Shown: positions 16,685-62,284 of the stretch, in pieces
How the letters are laid out: the number at the start of each line of letters is the position of its first letter
Numbering within the stretch: the stretch's first letter is position 1
NCBI GenBank assembly: GCA_003604995.1
Contig: QZJD01000025.1
Span: 1 to 64,000, forward strand
Direction: 5' to 3'
Length of the DNA stretch: 64,000 bases
Source of the DNA: Desulfobulbus sp.
Lineage (GTDB): Bacteria; Desulfobacterota; Desulfobulbia; Desulfobulbales; Desulfobulbaceae
Notes under the pieces: generated by a model
What the model was told of the DNA's origin: nothing
Databases searched by the model: none
What the model saw: only the letters and a program-made list of their open reading frames with translations
Program-made: the position numbers and the translations under genes

Positions 16685-16824
16685 GCGTGCTCCATTGGAT
16701 GATACCCTTGCGAATCCTCAAAACGCGAGGCATCCGCCACCGCGATTTTCGCAAGTTGCAAGGAAGCGAATTCGGCCCCGTTCTTTGCGCGGAACCGGCA
16801 ACAGCTTAATCTCAAAACATATGA

Positions 16825-22631: not shown

Positions 22632-24761
22632 ATGGGCGCCCACCGCCTCCGCGCCACCTGGCTGCATGCCGTCCTGCATGGCGGCATCGCCGTGGCCCTT
22701 TCTCTGGTCCTCTGGTTTTCCGGACTGTTCCAGGGAATCGAGGCAACAACTTTTGACCTCCGGGCAAGATTGCTTGCTGAACCATCTCCGGCCGGCAGCG
22801 CCATCAGCCTGATCGCCGTTGACCAGGAAAGCCTGGACTGGGTAGCGGAAAACATGGGGATTGTCTGGCCCTGGCCGCGGGAACTGTTCGGCGCGGTCAT
22901 CGACAACTGCAAGCGCCGCGGGGCGCGGGCCATTGGCTTCGATGTCCTGTTCACCGAACCTTCCTCGTCCGGCGTCAGCGATGACCAGGCCCTGGTCCGG
23001 GCCATTGAACGGGCAGGGTCCTTTGCCCTGGGTTCGGTTTTTCCCACCCGCAACAACGCCAAATTTTCGGCTTGGCCGGACGCTCTTCCCCGGCCGCCTT
23101 ACGCTGCCCGGATGGGGCATGGCGCCACGGATATTCTGCCTCGCTATCCGATGGCCACCCTGCCGGTGCACGAAATCGCCCGGGCCGCAACGGTGTTGTG
23201 CAATGTCCACCACGGAGCAGATGCGGACGGTATTTACCGGCGCATCCATCCCTTTGTTCTTTTTGATGGGGTTCCGTTGCCCTCCCTGGGAATCGGTCTC
23301 TATCTGGCGGCCCACCCGAAGGCCCTAATCCAGGTCAACCGGCACGCGGTGATCATCGACGGCAACCGGATTCCCCTGGACAAGTACGGGGCGACCATTC
23401 CGCGCTACCGCGGACCGCACAAGACCCATATGATGCACAGCGCCGCCGCCTTTATCCGGCAGGAATTCCGCCTCATGAACGGCGAACTAGTCCCGGAGGA
23501 AATCGAGCATGATCTGACCGGCAAATATGTCCTTTTCGGTTATACCGCGCCCGGACTCTTTGACCTGCGGCCCTCGCCGACGGACGGGATGTTCTCGGGG
23601 ATGGAGATCAATGCCACCGTGCTCGACAACCTCCTGGCCGGCGATTTTATCCGGCCCATGTCCGCTGCCTGGACCGCGACCCTGGTGCTGCTCTTCACCT
23701 CCTTCGCCCTGGCCGCGCTGGCCCTGATCCCTTCGCTGCGCGGCCGGATCGCCGTCGCCCTTTGTTTCATGCTGCTGCCCGCCCTCATCGCCGTTCAATT
23801 TTACAAACAGGGGTTTGATTTTACCCTGGTTCCCGTGCAGTTCGCGGTGGCGGCCGCCCTGGCCATGTCCATCGTCCAGGAGTACTTCATGACTCTGCGC
23901 CAGGAACGCTTTATCCGCCATTCCTTCAAACACTATCTCAGTCCGGCGGTCATCGATCAACTGCTCGGCAATCCGGAACGGCTCAAGCTCGGTGGCGAGC
24001 GCAAGGAACTGACCATGTTCTTTTCCGATCTGGAAGGGTTCACCAGGATATCCGAAGGACTCGCCCCCGAGCAGTTGACGCAGCTTCTCAACGAATACCT
24101 GACGGCCATGACCGATATTATTCTCCAGGAAGAGGGGACGGTGGACAAATTTGAAGGGGATGCAATCATAGCCTTCTGGAACGCCCCGCTGGAAATCGCC
24201 GGCCACCCCGAGAAGGCGGTGCGGGCAGCCCTGCGCTGCCAGGCGCGGCTTGGTGCCATGCGCGACCACTTTCTTGCCGGTCATGGCGTGGAACTGGTGA
24301 TGCGCATCGGCATCAATACCGGGCACGCCATTGCCGGCAATATGGGATCCGCCAGCCGTTTCGATTATACGGTCCTGGGTGACGCTGTGAATCTGGCGGC
24401 GCGCCTGGAAGGGGCGAACAAATATTTCGGCACCCGCACCATGATCTCCCAGGCCACGTTCAACCAGCTGGGCAGCCAGTTCCATTGCCGGGAACTGGGA
24501 CGTCTCAAGGTGGTGGGCCGCCGGGAGCCGGTGACCGTTTACGAACCTCTTTCCCATGCCGGCGCCCCGGCAGTTGATTACTCTGCCTTTGCCGCGGGAC
24601 TGCAACACTACTATGCCGGCGAATTTGCCGAAGCCCAGGCTGCTTTTTCACGTCTTGCCGGACAGGATCCGGCCTCGGCAATGTATGCGAAGCTGTGCGC
24701 CAGGCTGATAAGCGCGCCGCCAATAACCTGGGACGGCGTTCTGATCCTTGACGCCAAATAA
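22632..24761 (+). CDS. CHASE2 domain-containing class III adenylate/guanylate cyclase
   Basis: N-terminal CHASE2-like region, TM helices, cyclase core ELTMFFSDLEGFTRISEGL ... FEGDAIIAFWNAP ... GINTGHAIAGNMGSASRFDYTVLGDAVNLAARLEG. Confidence 0.93.
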   Translation: MGAHRLRATWLHAVLHGGIAVALSLVLWFSGLFQGIEATTFDLRARLLAEPSPAGSAISLIAVDQESLDWVAENMGIVWPWPRELFGAVIDNCKRRGARAIGFDVLFTEPSSSGVSDDQALVRAIERAGSFALGSVFPTRNNAKFSAWPDALPRPPYAARMGHGATDILPRYPMATLPVHEIARAATVLCNVHHGADADGIYRRIHPFVLFDGVPLPSLGIGLYLAAHPKALIQVNRHAVIIDGNRIPLDKYGATIPRYRGPHKTHMMHSAAAFIRQEFRLMNGELVPEEIEHDLTGKYVLFGYTAPGLFDLRPSPTDGMFSGMEINATVLDNLLAGDFIRPMSAAWTATLVLLFTSFALAALALIPSLRGRIAVALCFMLLPALIAVQFYKQGFDFTLVPVQFAVAAALAMSIVQEYFMTLRQERFIRHSFKHYLSPAVIDQLLGNPERLKLGGERKELTMFFSDLEGFTRISEGLAPEQLTQLLNEYLTAMTDIILQEEGTVDKFEGDAIIAFWNAPLEIAGHPEKAVRAALRCQARLGAMRDHFLAGHGVELVMRIGINTGHAIAGNMGSASRFDYTVLGDAVNLAARLEGANKYFGTRTMISQATFNQLGSQFHCRELGRLKVVGRREPVTVYEPLSHAGAPAVDYSAFAAGLQHYYAGEFAEAQAAFSRLAGQDPASAMYAKLCARLISAPPITWDGVLILDAK

Positions 24762-25669: not shown

Positions 25670-26539
25670 GTGACAGAATGGAGGAGAGGAATGGTTTATC
25701 AGAATTTTTCGTGGTTTTTGCCGGCCCTTGTTCTTCTGCTTCTTTCCTGCGGTGCGCCTGCCGATGTGGCGGGCCAACCCGTCACCCTGGTGACCCTGGG
25801 CGACAGCCTGACCGCCGGTGACGGCGATGAGGCCGGCATCGGCGGTTATCCCCCCCGGTTGCTCCTCCAGCTTCAGGTTTCCCACCCCGGCTCGGTCCTG
25901 CAGCAGTTTGGCCAATCCGGTCACACCACCGGTGATCTGATCAATATCCAGCTCAATCCCGCGGTGGCCGCGCTAAACAACGCGCCGGCCGCCAACCTGA
26001 AAATTGCCCTGGTCTGGATCGGCAGCAACGATCTGTTCGGCTTTTACGAGTTTACCGCCCAGCAGGACTGGTGTATCGCCATGGGCATCGACGCCTGCGA
26101 GGCGTCTGAATTTCAGCAGTCCGCCGACAACGTCAACACCATCCTCGCCGCCCTGCAAGCCACCGGCGCGGCGGTTTACATCGCCCTGCTGGATGATCAG
26201 TCCCGGCGACCGGTCATCACCGACCCTGTTCTCCGGGCCGCCGCCTATCCAAACATCACCAACGAATATGCGGCCAGGATGTCCACCCAGGTCGGCGTGT
26301 ACAACGGCCGGGTCCAGGCCCATGCCGTCACCCATGGCGCCCGCACGGTGGACTTCTTCAATACGACCCTTTTTGAAAACTGGGCTACCCTCAGTCCGGA
26401 CGGCAATCATCCGAACGCAGCGGGCTATGACCTGATCACCGCCATCTGGTTCAAGGCGGTGAGCAACGCGCCGCCCGCATCCACCAGAAAATTTCTCACC
26501 GGGCCGACATCCCTCCTCCTCCTGAACGCCAATCCGTAA
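25670..26539 (+). CDS. SGNH/GDSL hydrolase family protein
   Basis: VTLGDSLTAGDG (GDSL block), IGSNDL, DGNHPNAAGYDLI (catalytic DxxH). Confidence 0.9.
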   Translation: MTEWRRGMVYQNFSWFLPALVLLLLSCGAPADVAGQPVTLVTLGDSLTAGDGDEAGIGGYPPRLLLQLQVSHPGSVLQQFGQSGHTTGDLINIQLNPAVAALNNAPAANLKIALVWIGSNDLFGFYEFTAQQDWCIAMGIDACEASEFQQSADNVNTILAALQATGAAVYIALLDDQSRRPVITDPVLRAAAYPNITNEYAARMSTQVGVYNGRVQAHAVTHGARTVDFFNTTLFENWATLSPDGNHPNAAGYDLITAIWFKAVSNAPPASTRKFLTGPTSLLLLNANP

Positions 26540-26607
26540 CCGGTGCATGCGAAAATAAAATTTCCACCAGGGCGGATATTTTTTCTGTAATGACGTCGTG
26601 AAATTCA

Positions 26608-26637
26608 TTGACACGTTTTATGCTGTTTGGCTAAATA
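26608..26637 (+). promoter_or_regulatory. Sigma70-like promoter for the microprotein unit
   Basis: TTGACA (26608-26613), 18-nt spacer, TAAATA (26632-26637). Confidence 0.55.
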
Positions 26638-26639
26638 TG

Positions 26640-26719
26640 AGGTGACCGGGGACAATGCGCAGGCGTTGCGAAAACATGCCTGGACAGTTGAATTAATGCA
26701 ACGTTAACGCCGGTCACCT
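26640..26719 (+). ncRNA. Structured 5' leader candidate upstream of the microprotein
   Basis: Perfect 10-bp closing stem AGGTGACCGG (26640-26649) / CCGGTCACCT (26710-26719) plus internal complementary segments. Confidence 0.45.
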
Positions 26720-26797
26720 TGAAACTTATCGAAATCACAGCGGCGAATATTTCAGAGTACACCAAAAATAAAAAAACAGTGTAAGGAGGGAGGGAAA

Positions 26798-26944
26798 ATG
26801 AAAAAAACGTTTTTCTTGTTGGCAGCGGTTTGTCTGCTGGTTGCCGGAGCAAGCTTCTCTGTTCAGGCTACCCCGGAAAAGGCGGAAATAACCGGGTTCT
26901 CGTGCGGATTTTGCCATTCGGGCGGTCGCCATCACGGCAATTAA
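26798..26944 (+). CDS. 48-aa secreted peptide with CxxCH (heme c-type) motif
   Basis: MKKTFFLLAAVCLLVAGASFSVQATPEKAEITGFSCGFCHSGGRHHGN*; strong SD TAAGGAGGGAGGG; signal peptide; below the ORF-track length cutoff. Confidence 0.75.
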   Translation: MKKTFFLLAAVCLLVAGASFSVQATPEKAEITGFSCGFCHSGGRHHGN

Positions 26945-26991
26945 ACGACGCACGCAAGCACCAGAGCCTCTGCCTGGGGAGGCTCACAAAC

Positions 26992-27022
26992 GGCGGTCTG
27001 CAATAATACCGCCTTTTTTTTT
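26992..27022 (+). terminator. Rho-independent terminator
   Basis: GGCGGT-ctgcaataat-ACCGCC followed by nine Ts (27014-27022). Confidence 0.85.
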
Positions 27023-27030
27023 GCAAGAAC

Positions 27031-27426
27031 TTACCGTTGCTGTTCAGCCAGGATGTCGGCGGCGATTTCCGCCACCTGGGGATCGGTATCGTGGAGGAGA
27101 GGCGCGACAGCCGCCAGAGCCTCGGGGGAGGCGATGATGCCGAGCAGGGTGGCGGCCTCGCCCCGAACATGGGCAACGGAGTCCCGGAGGAGGGGCCGCA
27201 GGACCGGAACGGCGAGCTGAATTTCGTCCGGGCGGGTTGCGGCGAGTTCCTCGAAAAGCACGGCCATGCCCACCCGAACCACGTACCGCTCGTCGCGGAG
27301 CAGGTCGCCGGTCAGGGCGTACAGCCTTGCGTCCTGGCGGAACATGGCCGCGATGTTTTCAACAAGACCCATCTCAATGAAACTGCCGATCAGCTCAAGC
27401 AGTTCGCGGCGTTCGTCCTGCTCCAT
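27031..27426 (-). CDS. HEAT-repeat domain-containing protein
   Basis: MEQDERRELLELIGSF...; repeats PVLRPLLRDSVAHVRGEAATLLGIIASPEALAAVAPLLHDTDPQVAEIAADIL. Confidence 0.8.
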   Translation of the reverse strand: MEQDERRELLELIGSFIEMGLVENIAAMFRQDARLYALTGDLLRDERYVVRVGMAVLFEELAATRPDEIQLAVPVLRPLLRDSVAHVRGEAATLLGIIASPEALAAVAPLLHDTDPQVAEIAADILAEQQR

Positions 27427-27479
27427 TACGCATTTCCACCGACATGAAAGACCGGGTTTGAGGGTAGATGGCCTGCGCC

Positions 27480-28556
27480 TCAGACGGAAGGGGTCCCCTG
27501 CACTCTGGCGGCGAGCTGTCCGCAGGCGGCCGAGATGTCTTCGCCACGGCTCTGGCGGATAAAGACGGCGTAACCGCGCCGCCTGAGAATTTCCTGAAAA
27601 CGGAGGATGTGCTCCCGCCCCGGGCTGCGGTGCGGGCATCCTTCGGTGGCGTTCACCACCAGGAGATTGATCTTGCAGGGAATGCCGCGCAGCAGCTCGG
27701 CCAGCTTCACCGCATCAGCGTCGGAATCGTTCACGCCCTCCAGCAGCACATATTCAAACATGATCCGCTGCCGTTTCTTCATCTGATATTCCTTGCACGC
27801 GGCCAGCAGTTCTTCCAGCGGATATTTCCTGTTGATCGGCATCAGCATGGAGCGGGTGGCGTTGTCCACCGCGTGCAGGGAAACGGCCAGATTGACCTCG
27901 CTCTTCCTGCCGAACTCGAGCATCTGCGGCACCAGGCCACTGGTGGACACGGTGATCCGCCGGCTGGAAAAATCAAGCCCCCGCTGTTCAGTAAGAATGG
28001 ACAGCGCAATCAGCAGATTGTCCAGATTGGCCAGGGGCTCACCCATACCCATGAAGACCAGGTTGGAGAGTTCACCCTTGATCTGATCTCCCCTGTTCTG
28101 TTCCAGCATCCAGTCACGGACCGCGCAGACCTGGTTGACGATTTCCGCGGGCTTCAGGTTGCGGGAAAAACCCATTTTGCCGGTAAGACAGAAGGTGCAG
28201 CCCATGGCGCAACCCACCTGGGTGGACACGCACAGGGTGTTGCGATCCTCCTCGGGGATCAGCACCGATTCGATCATCTTGCCGTCTTCCAGGGTAAAGC
28301 CGAATTTCACCGCTCCGTCTTCGGAAACTTCCACGACCGGATTTTCGAAGCGACTGATCCGGGCCCGCTGGGCGAGCAGCGCGCGCAGTTCCTTGGCCAG
28401 GTCGGTCATCTGAGAAAAATCGGTGATGCCGGGCCGGTAGAGCCAGGCCAGGAGCTGCTCGGCACGGAACGAGGGCTGGCCGAGCATTTCCACGTAGCGG
28501 ACCAGCTGCTGGCGGTTCATGTTTTTGAGGTCGGTTTTGCTCTGGGTGGTGATCAT
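27480..28556 (-). CDS. rlmN: 23S rRNA (adenine(2503)-C(2))-methyltransferase RlmN
   Basis: CVSTQVGCAMGCTFCLTGKMGFSRNL (radical SAM), NLVFMGMGEPLANLDN, RITVSTSGLVP. Confidence 0.96.
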   Translation of the reverse strand: MITTQSKTDLKNMNRQQLVRYVEMLGQPSFRAEQLLAWLYRPGITDFSQMTDLAKELRALLAQRARISRFENPVVEVSEDGAVKFGFTLEDGKMIESVLIPEEDRNTLCVSTQVGCAMGCTFCLTGKMGFSRNLKPAEIVNQVCAVRDWMLEQNRGDQIKGELSNLVFMGMGEPLANLDNLLIALSILTEQRGLDFSSRRITVSTSGLVPQMLEFGRKSEVNLAVSLHAVDNATRSMLMPINRKYPLEELLAACKEYQMKKRQRIMFEYVLLEGVNDSDADAVKLAELLRGIPCKINLLVVNATEGCPHRSPGREHILRFQEILRRRGYAVFIRQSRGEDISAACGQLAARVQGTPSV

Positions 28557-28573: not shown

Positions 28574-29443
28574 TTACAGGGCCCGGCGATACTCCGGCTT
28601 CAAGGCAACCGTACCGGCAAGGGCCTGGTCGACAAGGGCTATCATCTGTATTTTATCGCGGGACAGGCGACCGTCAAGTTCGAAATAGTTTGAGGCGTGG
28701 TTTGCCTGAAACTGAGCCCGTTCCAAGTCAAGATCGACAAGGAGGCTGCGCAGCTCCCGCAGCAGATCATGCCGGTCCGGCATTTCGAAGTTTCCCTGCC
28801 GCCAGGCATCGGCCAGCGGAGTGTTTACCAGGAGCATCAGGGTCAGGGCCGCCACCTGATTGGGCCTCATGGCATTGAGCACCGCGGCGGTGGCCCGGGC
28901 GTGCGCCTGGGAATCCCGGCGGCCGGCGATCCCGAGCAGCACGCTGACCGAGAGAAAAATGCCCGCCTCCCGCACCCGCTGACCGGCCGCGATCATCTCC
29001 CGGGAATCCGAACCCTTGGCTATGGCCGCAAGGGTCGGATCATGACCGGTTTCCAGGCCCATATACAGGCGCGACATGCCGAGTCCCTTAAGTTGCCGCA
29101 GTTCATCCACGCTCCGCCGCAGGATGTCCCGGGCGTTGGCATAGAGGCTGACCCGCCGCACCCAGGGCAGCCGCTCCCTGATCCGCGCAAGCAGCGAAAC
29201 CAGCCTAGCCTGGGGCATGGCCAGTCCGTTGCCGTCGGCCAGGAACAGGGTCTTCTGCCGCCGGCAGTATTCGGCGGCAAAGGCCAGGTCCGCCTCGACG
29301 GTCTCCTCCTCTTTGAGGCGGAAGGAGCGGTCCCGGTAGGCACCGCAAAAGGTGCACCGGTTGTGCGAGCAGCCCACCGTCGCCTGCAGGATGATGGAAA
29401 AGGCCTCACTGGGCGGCCGGATGATGTCGCCTTCGTAGTTCAC
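28574..29443 (-). CDS. Radical SAM protein
   Basis: ILQATVGCSHNRCTFCGAYRDRSFRLK (CxxxxxCxxC variant), GLGMSRLYMGLETGHDPTL. Confidence 0.85.
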   Translation of the reverse strand: MNYEGDIIRPPSEAFSIILQATVGCSHNRCTFCGAYRDRSFRLKEEETVEADLAFAAEYCRRQKTLFLADGNGLAMPQARLVSLLARIRERLPWVRRVSLYANARDILRRSVDELRQLKGLGMSRLYMGLETGHDPTLAAIAKGSDSREMIAAGQRVREAGIFLSVSVLLGIAGRRDSQAHARATAAVLNAMRPNQVAALTLMLLVNTPLADAWRQGNFEMPDRHDLLRELRSLLVDLDLERAQFQANHASNYFELDGRLSRDKIQMIALVDQALAGTVALKPEYRRAL

Positions 29444-40874: not shown

Positions 40875-42245
40875 ATGAAGCAACGCAACCTCTATATTAA
40901 AACCTTTGGCTGCCAGATGAACGAAAGGGATTCGGAGATCATCGAGCAACTCCTTCTGCCCATGGGCTTTCTTCCCGTGGCGGACATGGGCAAAGCCGAC
41001 CTCATCCTGCTCAACACATGCAGCATCCGGGCCAAGGCAGAGCAGAAGGTATACAGTCTACTCGGACAGCTTAGACAGTATAAGTTGAGTAATCCCAGAT
41101 TGTTGATCGGGGTAGCCGGCTGCGTCGCCCAACAGGAAGGCATGCGGATTCAACAGAAGATGCCCCATGTGGACCTGGTCGTCGGCACCCAGCAGATGTA
41201 CAGCCTTCCCGAATTGATTGGCCGCCTTGACAACGGTCAATCCCTCAAGCCGAGGATCGACCTTGACCCCTGTTTCCGCATACCCGCGCTGCGGGAAATT
41301 TCAGCGGCCGGCAAACAGCCCCCCTCCCCTGCCCCGCGCTCTTTTAAAAAATTTGTCACCATTATGCAGGGGTGCAACAACTTTTGCAGCTACTGTGTGG
41401 TCCCGCACACCAGGGGCCGGGAGATAAGCCGTCCGGTTGCGGACATTCTGGACGAGGTGCGCAGCCGCGTCGAGGCCGGAGCAACCGACATTACCCTTCT
41501 CGGCCAGAACGTCAACTCCTACGGACAGACCAACCAGGTTGCCGATCACCCGGTCACCTTTGCCGACCTCCTGCGCCAGGTCGCGGAAATCCCCGGGATA
41601 CGACGCCTCAGATTCACCACCTCCAACCCCAAGGATCTGACCGATGAGCTGATGCGTTGCTTTGCCGAGATACCGATCCTCTGCCCCCATTTTCATCTGC
41701 CGGTCCAGTCGGGCTCCGATCGAATCCTTGCCGCCATGAACCGAAAATATACGGTCGCCGACTATCTGGACCGGGTTGCCGGCCTGCGTCGCTACAGGCC
41801 GGACCTGGCCCTGGGTACGGATATCATCGTCGGATTCCCCGGGGAGACTGACACGGATTTCGAGCAGACCATGGCGCTGCTGGAAGAGGTGCGTTTCCAC
41901 TCCTCGTTCTCCTTTAAATATTCCGACCGTCCCGGCGCCCGCTCCTCGTCCTTTGACAACAAGGTTTCCGAAAGGGTAAAATCAGAACGACTCACCCGTT
42001 TCCAGAAGCGCCAGGACGAAATAAGTCTTGCCCGCAATAAAGAGTATTTAGAGAGTACAGTTGAGACAATGGTTGAAGGCGAGGGCAAGAATGGTTTAGT
42101 GCAAGGCCGATCCGCCACCAACCACCTGGTGCACTTCCCGGGGACGGCTGAAAGAGCCCTGCGGCCGGGAGAGGTGGTTCTGGTCAGAATTGACGGCGCA
42201 GGCCAGCATTCGCTGACCGGCACACTTCTGAACGAGAAGATATGA
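40875..42245 (+). CDS. miaB: tRNA-2-methylthio-N6-dimethylallyladenosine synthase
   Basis: LYIKTFGCQMNERDSEII, IMQGCNNFCSYCVVPHTRGREISR (radical SAM), LLGQNVNSYG, TRAM tail. Confidence 0.97.
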   Translation: MKQRNLYIKTFGCQMNERDSEIIEQLLLPMGFLPVADMGKADLILLNTCSIRAKAEQKVYSLLGQLRQYKLSNPRLLIGVAGCVAQQEGMRIQQKMPHVDLVVGTQQMYSLPELIGRLDNGQSLKPRIDLDPCFRIPALREISAAGKQPPSPAPRSFKKFVTIMQGCNNFCSYCVVPHTRGREISRPVADILDEVRSRVEAGATDITLLGQNVNSYGQTNQVADHPVTFADLLRQVAEIPGIRRLRFTTSNPKDLTDELMRCFAEIPILCPHFHLPVQSGSDRILAAMNRKYTVADYLDRVAGLRRYRPDLALGTDIIVGFPGETDTDFEQTMALLEEVRFHSSFSFKYSDRPGARSSSFDNKVSERVKSERLTRFQKRQDEISLARNKEYLESTVETMVEGEGKNGLVQGRSATNHLVHFPGTAERALRPGEVVLVRIDGAGQHSLTGTLLNEKI

Positions 42246-42348
42246 TTGTCAGTTTCCGACAATCGGGAGATCACCCCACTTCTGCCTTGCCAAATGTTGA
42301 AAACATCATGGCGGACGCCATGCGAAATTCCTTTACCGGGAGGTTATC

Positions 42349-42993
42349 ATGATTGACCTGCACACCCATACCCTGTTCAGCGACGGGGTCCTGGTGCCGG
42401 CGGAACATCTTCGCCGATTCGAGGTGCTGGGGTATGAGGCGGTGGCGATCACCGATCACGCCGATTCATCAAACCTGGATTTTATCATACCCCGGATCGT
42501 CCAGGCTGCGGCCGATCTCAACCGTTACTCGCCAACCAGGCTGATCCCGGGCATCGAGCTGACCCATGTCCCGCCGGAGATGTTTAAAAGTCTCACCGCC
42601 CGCGCCCGCGATCTGGGCGCGCTTCTGGTGGTGGCGCACGGGGAGACCCCTGTGGAGCCGGTGATTCCCGGAACCAACCGCGCCGCCCTGGAAGCAGGGG
42701 TTGACCTCCTGGCCCATCCGGGCTTCATCTCAGAGGAAGAGGTGCGGCTGGCCGCTGAAAAAGGAATCTTTCTTGAGCTTTCCGGCCGCAAGGGGCATTG
42801 CCTGACCAACGGTCATGTGGCGCGGCTGGCCAGGGAGGCGGGGGCGCTCCTGGCGGTGAACGCCGACGCCCATGAGCCCGGGGATTTCATGTCGGCGATC
42901 CGCGCCGAATGCGTTGGTATGGGCGCGGGGCTCAGCGCGGTGGAATACGCGCAGTTGCGCGTCAATATGGCGAGCCTAGTCGCCCGCCTCTGA
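42349..42993 (+). CDS. PHP-domain histidinol-phosphatase-type protein
   Basis: MIDLHTHTLFSDGVLVPAEHLRR, VAITDHADSSNL, GIELTHVPPE, NADAHEPGDF. Confidence 0.9.
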   Translation: MIDLHTHTLFSDGVLVPAEHLRRFEVLGYEAVAITDHADSSNLDFIIPRIVQAAADLNRYSPTRLIPGIELTHVPPEMFKSLTARARDLGALLVVAHGETPVEPVIPGTNRAALEAGVDLLAHPGFISEEEVRLAAEKGIFLELSGRKGHCLTNGHVARLAREAGALLAVNADAHEPGDFMSAIRAECVGMGAGLSAVEYAQLRVNMASLVARL

Positions 42994-48310: not shown

Positions 48311-48377
48311 TCCCCCCCAGCTGGTTTGTGATCCCCGGGGGCAAGCGGTTGAGCCGGGACCGGTCCGCCAGGCTTGT

Positions 48378-48404
48378 CGGTTCCGCACAAAAAATGCGGA
48401 ACCG
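48378..48404. other. Strong hairpin between convergent genes
   Basis: CGGTTCCGCA-caaaaaa-TGCGGAACCG, 10-bp perfect stem. Confidence 0.8.
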
Positions 48405-48496
48405 CGACCGGCGGGCCATGCAATTTGTTGAAAGCTTAGCGGCGGATGCGCAGTGTCTTGACTTTCGAAAATTTCCTGTTTGAGGCGGGCCGGTTT

Positions 48497-61910: not shown

Positions 61911-62284
61911 ATTTCGCTCTGTTTGGATGGGTAGCGGGAAAAACGCGGAAGAGTCACTTATAGCCGATAATTTATTCTCCGACAACCTTGATGACCACGC
62001 AAAAGAAGCCAAAACACCGCGCATCCCCCACCGTAATTTCAGCAACTTATAAGACCCGTCAGCTTCGGCAAAGCACTTTTCGCGGGACCGCCGATCCCCA
62101 AAAAAACCTGATCTTATACCCCGAGGGTCAGGCGCTGAAAGACCGTGAGGGCGACTTCCCCTCACCGACCGCGATAGCGCATGAAAAAATTGACTGATCC
62201 GGCCGGGCGGTGTAAAAAATAAAGTTTACCTGTAAACATGCCGGGCTTGCCGGTTTCCAATTTTTCTAAGACAAAGGATCAGTT

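Follow-up and report, generated by a model that had tools for sequence, protein, structure and literature searches.

The microperoxidases MP-8 and MP-11 are proteolytic heme peptides of cytochrome c that carry a CxxCH motif. A 48-codon reading frame from Desulfobulbus sp., located in the window analysed here (the whole stretch of 64,000 nucleotides), specifies a predicted peptide of the same length class, with a single CxxCH and little else, in which His would likewise be the proximal ligand if heme were attached. Unlike the microperoxidases, which are laboratory digests, this peptide would be genetically encoded and exported. It also resembles Class I and other monoheme c-type cytochromes in its predicted Sec export and its one CxxCH, but differs from them in having no Pfam cytochrome match, no room for a fold, and no Met or other distal ligand domain. 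A further comparison is offered by the synthetic substrates of CcsBA. In vitro, the purified bacterial enzyme adds heme to CxxCH peptides with lengths of 20, 16, 11, and 9 residues, differing in this from the human synthase, and it requires little beyond the motif itself (PMC8112865). These 9- to 20-residue substrates are designed fragments of cytochrome c (PMC8112865), whereas the peptide considered here, which shares their CxxCH, would be a natural gene product.

The leader of this gene contains a degenerate copy of a dispersed element that can be compared with the MITEs ERIC and Chunjie (PMC10969869). Like these, the element is short, intergenic, and present in high copy, with target-site duplications and, as read by eye, imperfect inverted ends. 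Unlike them, it is about 108 nt long, combines a conserved core that is unpaired with a hairpin at one end that covaries, is spread over an order, and belongs to no Rfam family. This dispersed element is the firmer new fact at the locus and is better supported than the function of the peptide.

The probable peptide gene and its expression signals

The original prediction described a self-contained unit encoding a 48-residue secreted-type CxxCH peptide, with a strong Shine-Dalgarno sequence and a Rho-independent terminator. The reading frame obtained directly from the sequence is the same as the one claimed, and both the Shine-Dalgarno sequence and a GC-rich stem followed by nine T are found where they would be needed. 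The features of the locus are as follows:

26608-26637 (+), putative promoter: TTGACA at 26608-26613, an 18-nt spacer, and TAAATA at 26632-26637
26638-26722 (+), strong hairpin specific to this copy of the element, with arms AGGTGACCGG (26640-26649) and CCGGTCACCT (26710-26719)
26700-26767 (+), degenerate copy of the MITE-like element (covariance model, 28 bits, E 6.4e-6 in the window)
26782-26789 (+), Shine-Dalgarno sequence TAAGGAGG, read from the sequence, with the ATG 8 nt downstream
26798-26944 (+), peptide reading frame of 48 codons, read from the sequence: MKKTFFLLAAVCLLVAGASFSVQA before and TPEKAEITGFSCGFCHSGGRHHGN after the predicted cleavage
Residues 1-24 (+), predicted Sec-like signal peptide, with cleavage predicted between VQA and TP
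Predicted mature peptide (+), TPEKAEITGFSCGFCHSGGRHHGN, 24 aa, with CGFCH codons at 26903-26917 and an RHHGN tail
26964-26985 (+), hairpin GAGCCT...AGGCTC in the 3' untranslated region of the reading frame
26992-27022 (+), intrinsic terminator: 6-bp G+C-rich stem, 10-nt loop, and nine T

The terminator begins 47 nt after the stop codon, with arms GGCGGT (26992-26997) and ACCGCC (27008-27013) and a run of T extending to 27022. It was missed by a consensus scan because the loop limit of that scan is 8 nt and the loop here has 10. The promoter proposed earlier stands in part: TTGACA is perfect and the 18-nt spacing holds, but TAAATA shares only 3 of 6 positions with TATAAT. A consensus scan of 26000-27600 reported no promoter-like site. 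A transcript starting near 26644, as predicted, would lack part of the hairpin's 5' strand (26640-26649), so the promoter assignment is tentative. The 258 nt that follow the upstream GDSL gene showed no terminator, so co-transcription with the peptide reading frame is possible. With this possibility, the weak -10 element, and a leader that is partly a decayed mobile repeat, the description as a self-contained unit is not supported.

The prediction of a secreted peptide is retained as a prediction, as the signal-like N-terminus (KK, a hydrophobic core, and VQA) passes a rule-based filter. A lipoprotein signal was considered at AAVC and is unlikely by our own reasoning, given the Val before the Cys and the position of that Cys inside the hydrophobic core. 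Export of the peptide is probable.

A reading frame of this design is more than chance. Random sequence was generated as an order-2 Markov chain with the trinucleotide statistics of the window, and reading frames of up to 70 aa were counted. In 240 Mb of such sequence, a small reading frame with a signal-like N-terminus and CxxCH occurred once, for a random expectation of 0.02 per genome of this size on both strands, and the same design including a Shine-Dalgarno sequence did not occur at all (the real window has one). The filter is post hoc, designed with the peptide reading frame in view, and the figure is thus generous to it, though the margin is large. Codon usage is not gene-like (log-odds of -4.9 bits against the long genes of the window), a weak test on 48 codons for which short signal-peptide reading frames are poor material. 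The reading frame is probably a real gene.

A dispersed MITE-like element in the leader

The fold of 26638-26722, a stretch picked after the fact, is stronger than those of all 200 of 200 shuffles (z -4.16). A riboswitch, with the c-di-GMP type among those considered, was rejected as the explanation, as the leader has no Rfam match even at E 5 and the core that it shares with other loci is a dispersed repeat. The best-kept part of the leader copy is this core at 26718-26748 (CTTGAAACTTATCGAAATCACAGCGGCGAAT), with 0 mismatches to the search pattern. The remainder has decayed: the 5' hairpin of the family is lost or replaced, the 3' end is eroded, and a separate 10-bp stem specific to this copy now closes the region.

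The element was discovered through a 32-nt blast match elsewhere in the genome, which led to a pattern search that returned ten copies here and nine in one congener. Aligned copies show a 5' hairpin whose sequence varies and whose loop is A-rich (TGTCAGTCCCGC-AAAAA-GTGCGGGACTGACG), and a conserved unpaired core (GCCGGCA..CCTTGTAACTTGTTGAAATCACAGTGGCGGATGCTCAGTG), with TTTTTGCGAGGTYATCA as the end. A covariance model, R1, was built from 15 copies with the leader copy of the window left out, and it places the element at five positions in the window:

16697-16802 (-), element copy
26700-26767 (+), the degenerate leader copy
42245-42352 (+), element copy
48373-48479 (+), element copy
61986-62095 (-), element copy

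The genome contains at least 124 matches, and two congeners contain 101 and 61, while the other four have few or none. In a wider set the distribution is patchy, with matches in 33 of 116 genomes of the order. The hairpin covaries: double-changed cells number 121, compared with 52 in shuffled alignments, and the covariation score is 0.328 against 0.195, a value that none of 500 shuffles reached. As judged by eye, distant copies show joint changes of the loop CGTAAAAA and the 3' TTTTTACG.

For 92 copies, the surrounding genes were assigned with a simple codon-based caller. Only one of these copies lies within a called gene; 34 lie between divergent genes and seven between convergent genes, and of those between tandem genes 26 run along the gene direction and 20 against it. 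The repeat was considered as a regulatory leader, as the first copies seemed to lie upstream of genes, but this was abandoned for want of an orientation bias. The 9-mers flanking the element on either side are alike far more often within a copy than between copies: over 96 copies there are 404 matching positions, compared with 321 +/- 10 in permutations, none of 2000 of which scored as high. This agreement covers some 8-9 positions, the pattern expected of target-site duplications. The absence of orientation bias and these duplications argue that the element is a mobile repeat rather than a regulatory RNA. Its ends read TCAGNNNCGCAAAAA, and its apparent terminal inverted repeats are imperfect (5' TGTCAGTCCCGCAAAAA against the reverse complement of the 3' end, TGATAACCTCGCAAAAA, by eye). 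For two copies the model gives a match on the reverse strand as well. Rfam holds no family matching the element or the leader, phage records gave no match to the element, and plasmid records gave only one weak match (30 nt, E 0.3). The element resembles a bacterial MITE and is apparently an unnamed mobile repeat. Present in the leaders of many genes, and at more than 100 copies per genome in some members of the order, it will mislead searches for promoters and riboswitches in that group.

Some dozen copies (L252, L265, L212, L273, L224, L231, L236, L279, and L272 among them) have a neighbouring gene on the opposite strand that ends exactly at the 3' border of the element. The reverse complement of this border begins with TGATAA or TGATGA, so that the stop codon of the gene coincides with the element or with its preferred target (TCA...ATT). 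Another copy, at about 29325-29431 (-) of G000:C24 (L160/L201), is followed about 10 nt beyond its end by AGGAGG and a small reading frame starting MSSSNNKKDVTRPAYTAPQVIRLDSV, which resembles the precursor of a short modified peptide.

Homologues and genomic context

Homology searches of its own genome, where the peptide has no paralogue, of 195 further genomes from the order, of 84,980 species of bacteria and archaea, and of viral contigs returned no relative. Among sub-threshold matches in relatives (E 0.001-0.1), all those translated were larger proteins or chance frames, and the larger proteins share with the peptide no more than a signal peptide or one CxxCH. One close-looking candidate, L004 (TPESANIYGFTCAFCGS), was rejected, as it has no start codon and overlies a different coding frame. 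A pattern of KK-start, early CxxCH, and nearby TAA was applied to 74 genomes of the family, and among the loci read there was no second short secreted CxxCH gene. Pfam contains no family for the peptide up to E 1, NCBIfam gave no match above cut-off, and the best cytochrome match in the PDB reached only E 0.34. A truncated cytochrome was rejected on account of the terminator directly after the reading frame and the absence of a paralogue.

The downstream HEAT gene is present in only one congener, G002, at 78% identity, and the corresponding side of that gene holds unrelated genes and no such reading frame. The upstream GDSL gene is absent from all other congeners, and no congener preserves synteny of the flanking genes. 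Judged by these comparisons, the peptide reading frame is an orphan at a synteny break. As no search returned a homologue or paralogue, there is no evidence of selection on it, which counts against the best explanation, a lineage-specific gene. Four neighbours were scanned: a CHASE2 cyclase, a Zn-ribbon/HAMP protein, the GDSL hydrolase, and the HEAT protein. Among these there is no cytochrome gene adjoining the reading frame and no modifying enzyme of the MNIO type (bufferin-like RiPP). The missing cytochrome neighbour, the codon usage, and the weak -10 element likewise count against the proposed heme c gene. The first of the four, at 22632-24761 (+) of the same window, combines a CHASE2 domain with a class III nucleotidyl cyclase.

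Heme attachment in the host and readings of the gene

That the host makes many c-type hemes is supported: in the incomplete 2.64-Mb assembly on which the count was made, the CxxCH codon pattern occurs 497 times, compared with 88 for a reversed control pattern. Three Cytochrom_C_asm proteins score above cut-off in the genome, and one of them is encoded directly 3' of a ResB-family gene, which is the layout of System II (ResB-CcsA). As CcsBA accepts short CxxCH peptides, an exported CGFCH peptide should be a substrate.

In the proposed pathway, the strong Shine-Dalgarno sequence would direct translation, Sec would export the product, and cleavage after VQA would release the 24-residue TPEKAEITGFSCGFCHSGGRHHGN. 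In the periplasm, the resident ResB-CcsA would most likely link one heme c to Cys36 and Cys39, with His40 as the proximal ligand, to yield a minimal peptide of the monoheme c type. The iron's sixth coordination site could be open or taken by His45 or His46 of another peptide molecule. The likeliest use would be as a small periplasmic electron carrier or as a heme- or metal-binding partner of the many multiheme cytochromes. A monoheme c peptide is plausible on these grounds and, given export, heme attachment is slightly favoured, while confidence in any particular function is low. The account as a whole, namely a lineage-specific gene, Sec export, one heme c, and a periplasmic redox, heme, or metal partner, is given an even chance of being right. 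It starts from what the sequence shows, from how improbable this is by chance, and from the presence of heme-attachment genes, and it presumes expression, cleavage, heme attachment, and function.

Other readings divide over whether the peptide carries heme, whether it has any lasting role, and whether it is the main product at all. An exported peptide may function without heme, with CxxC and three His binding Zn, Cu, or Ni, or with the Cys pair acting as a redox thiol/disulfide. In the mature part, C36, C39, H40, H45, and H46 lie within 11 residues, enough for a small metal site; however, a periplasmic CxxCH in a System II cell is expected to be heme-attached (PMC8112865), no metal-handling or MNIO-type gene occurs among the scanned neighbours, and this reading is unlikely. 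The reading frame may instead be a young or decaying orphan that has no lasting function, either a proto-gene or what is left of a longer gene, and that survives by chance amid mobile elements. The empty searches of 196 genomes and 84,980 species, the break in synteny on both sides (GDSL in no congener, HEAT in G002 only), the decayed repeat in the leader, and the codon usage are consistent with such an origin. It is considered somewhat unlikely, as decay would not leave a Shine-Dalgarno sequence, a signal peptide, CxxCH, and a terminator all in register, and the terminator directly after the reading frame and the lack of a paralogue further oppose the remnant variant.

It is very improbable that 26608-27022 is mainly a riboswitch-like regulatory leader with a secondary reading frame. 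The strong fold at 26638-26722 and the covarying hairpin of the element family would suit this role, but that hairpin is lost in the leader copy of the window, Rfam offers no match, and the family shows no orientation bias to downstream genes (26 same and 20 opposite among tandem genes) and, with its target-site duplications, behaves as a mobile repeat.

The heme c reading retains part of the earlier suggestion of a minimal secreted heme- or metal-binding peptide: a real-looking, exported-type microprotein with a single CxxCH in a host with System II. The accompanying comparison with a microperoxidase found no specific support, and the peptide could work as one only if it carries heme. The idea of a natural heme c peptide, genetically encoded and some 24 residues long, a stand-alone product of System II acting as a genomic microperoxidase or minimal electron shuttle, is offered tentatively as a possibility. 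If true, it would be far smaller than any cytochrome family to which it can be matched. Heme attachment would mean that heme peptides as small as microperoxidases are made by cells as products in their own right, and that in vivo System II can do without a folded cytochrome. Gene callers apply length cut-offs that exclude genes this short, which could therefore be widely overlooked.

Two closely similar CcsA-type proteins are encoded in the genome (G000:C16, L085, and G000:C18, L086), one of them adjoining ResB, which suggests that System II is partly duplicated. Large multiheme cytochromes are encoded elsewhere in the genome, away from the peptide reading frame. Just beyond the window, at about 64558-67245 (+) of the same contig, C3 (L149:4558-7245), lies the gene for one of them, a secreted protein of 895 aa with about 30 or more CxxCH motifs.
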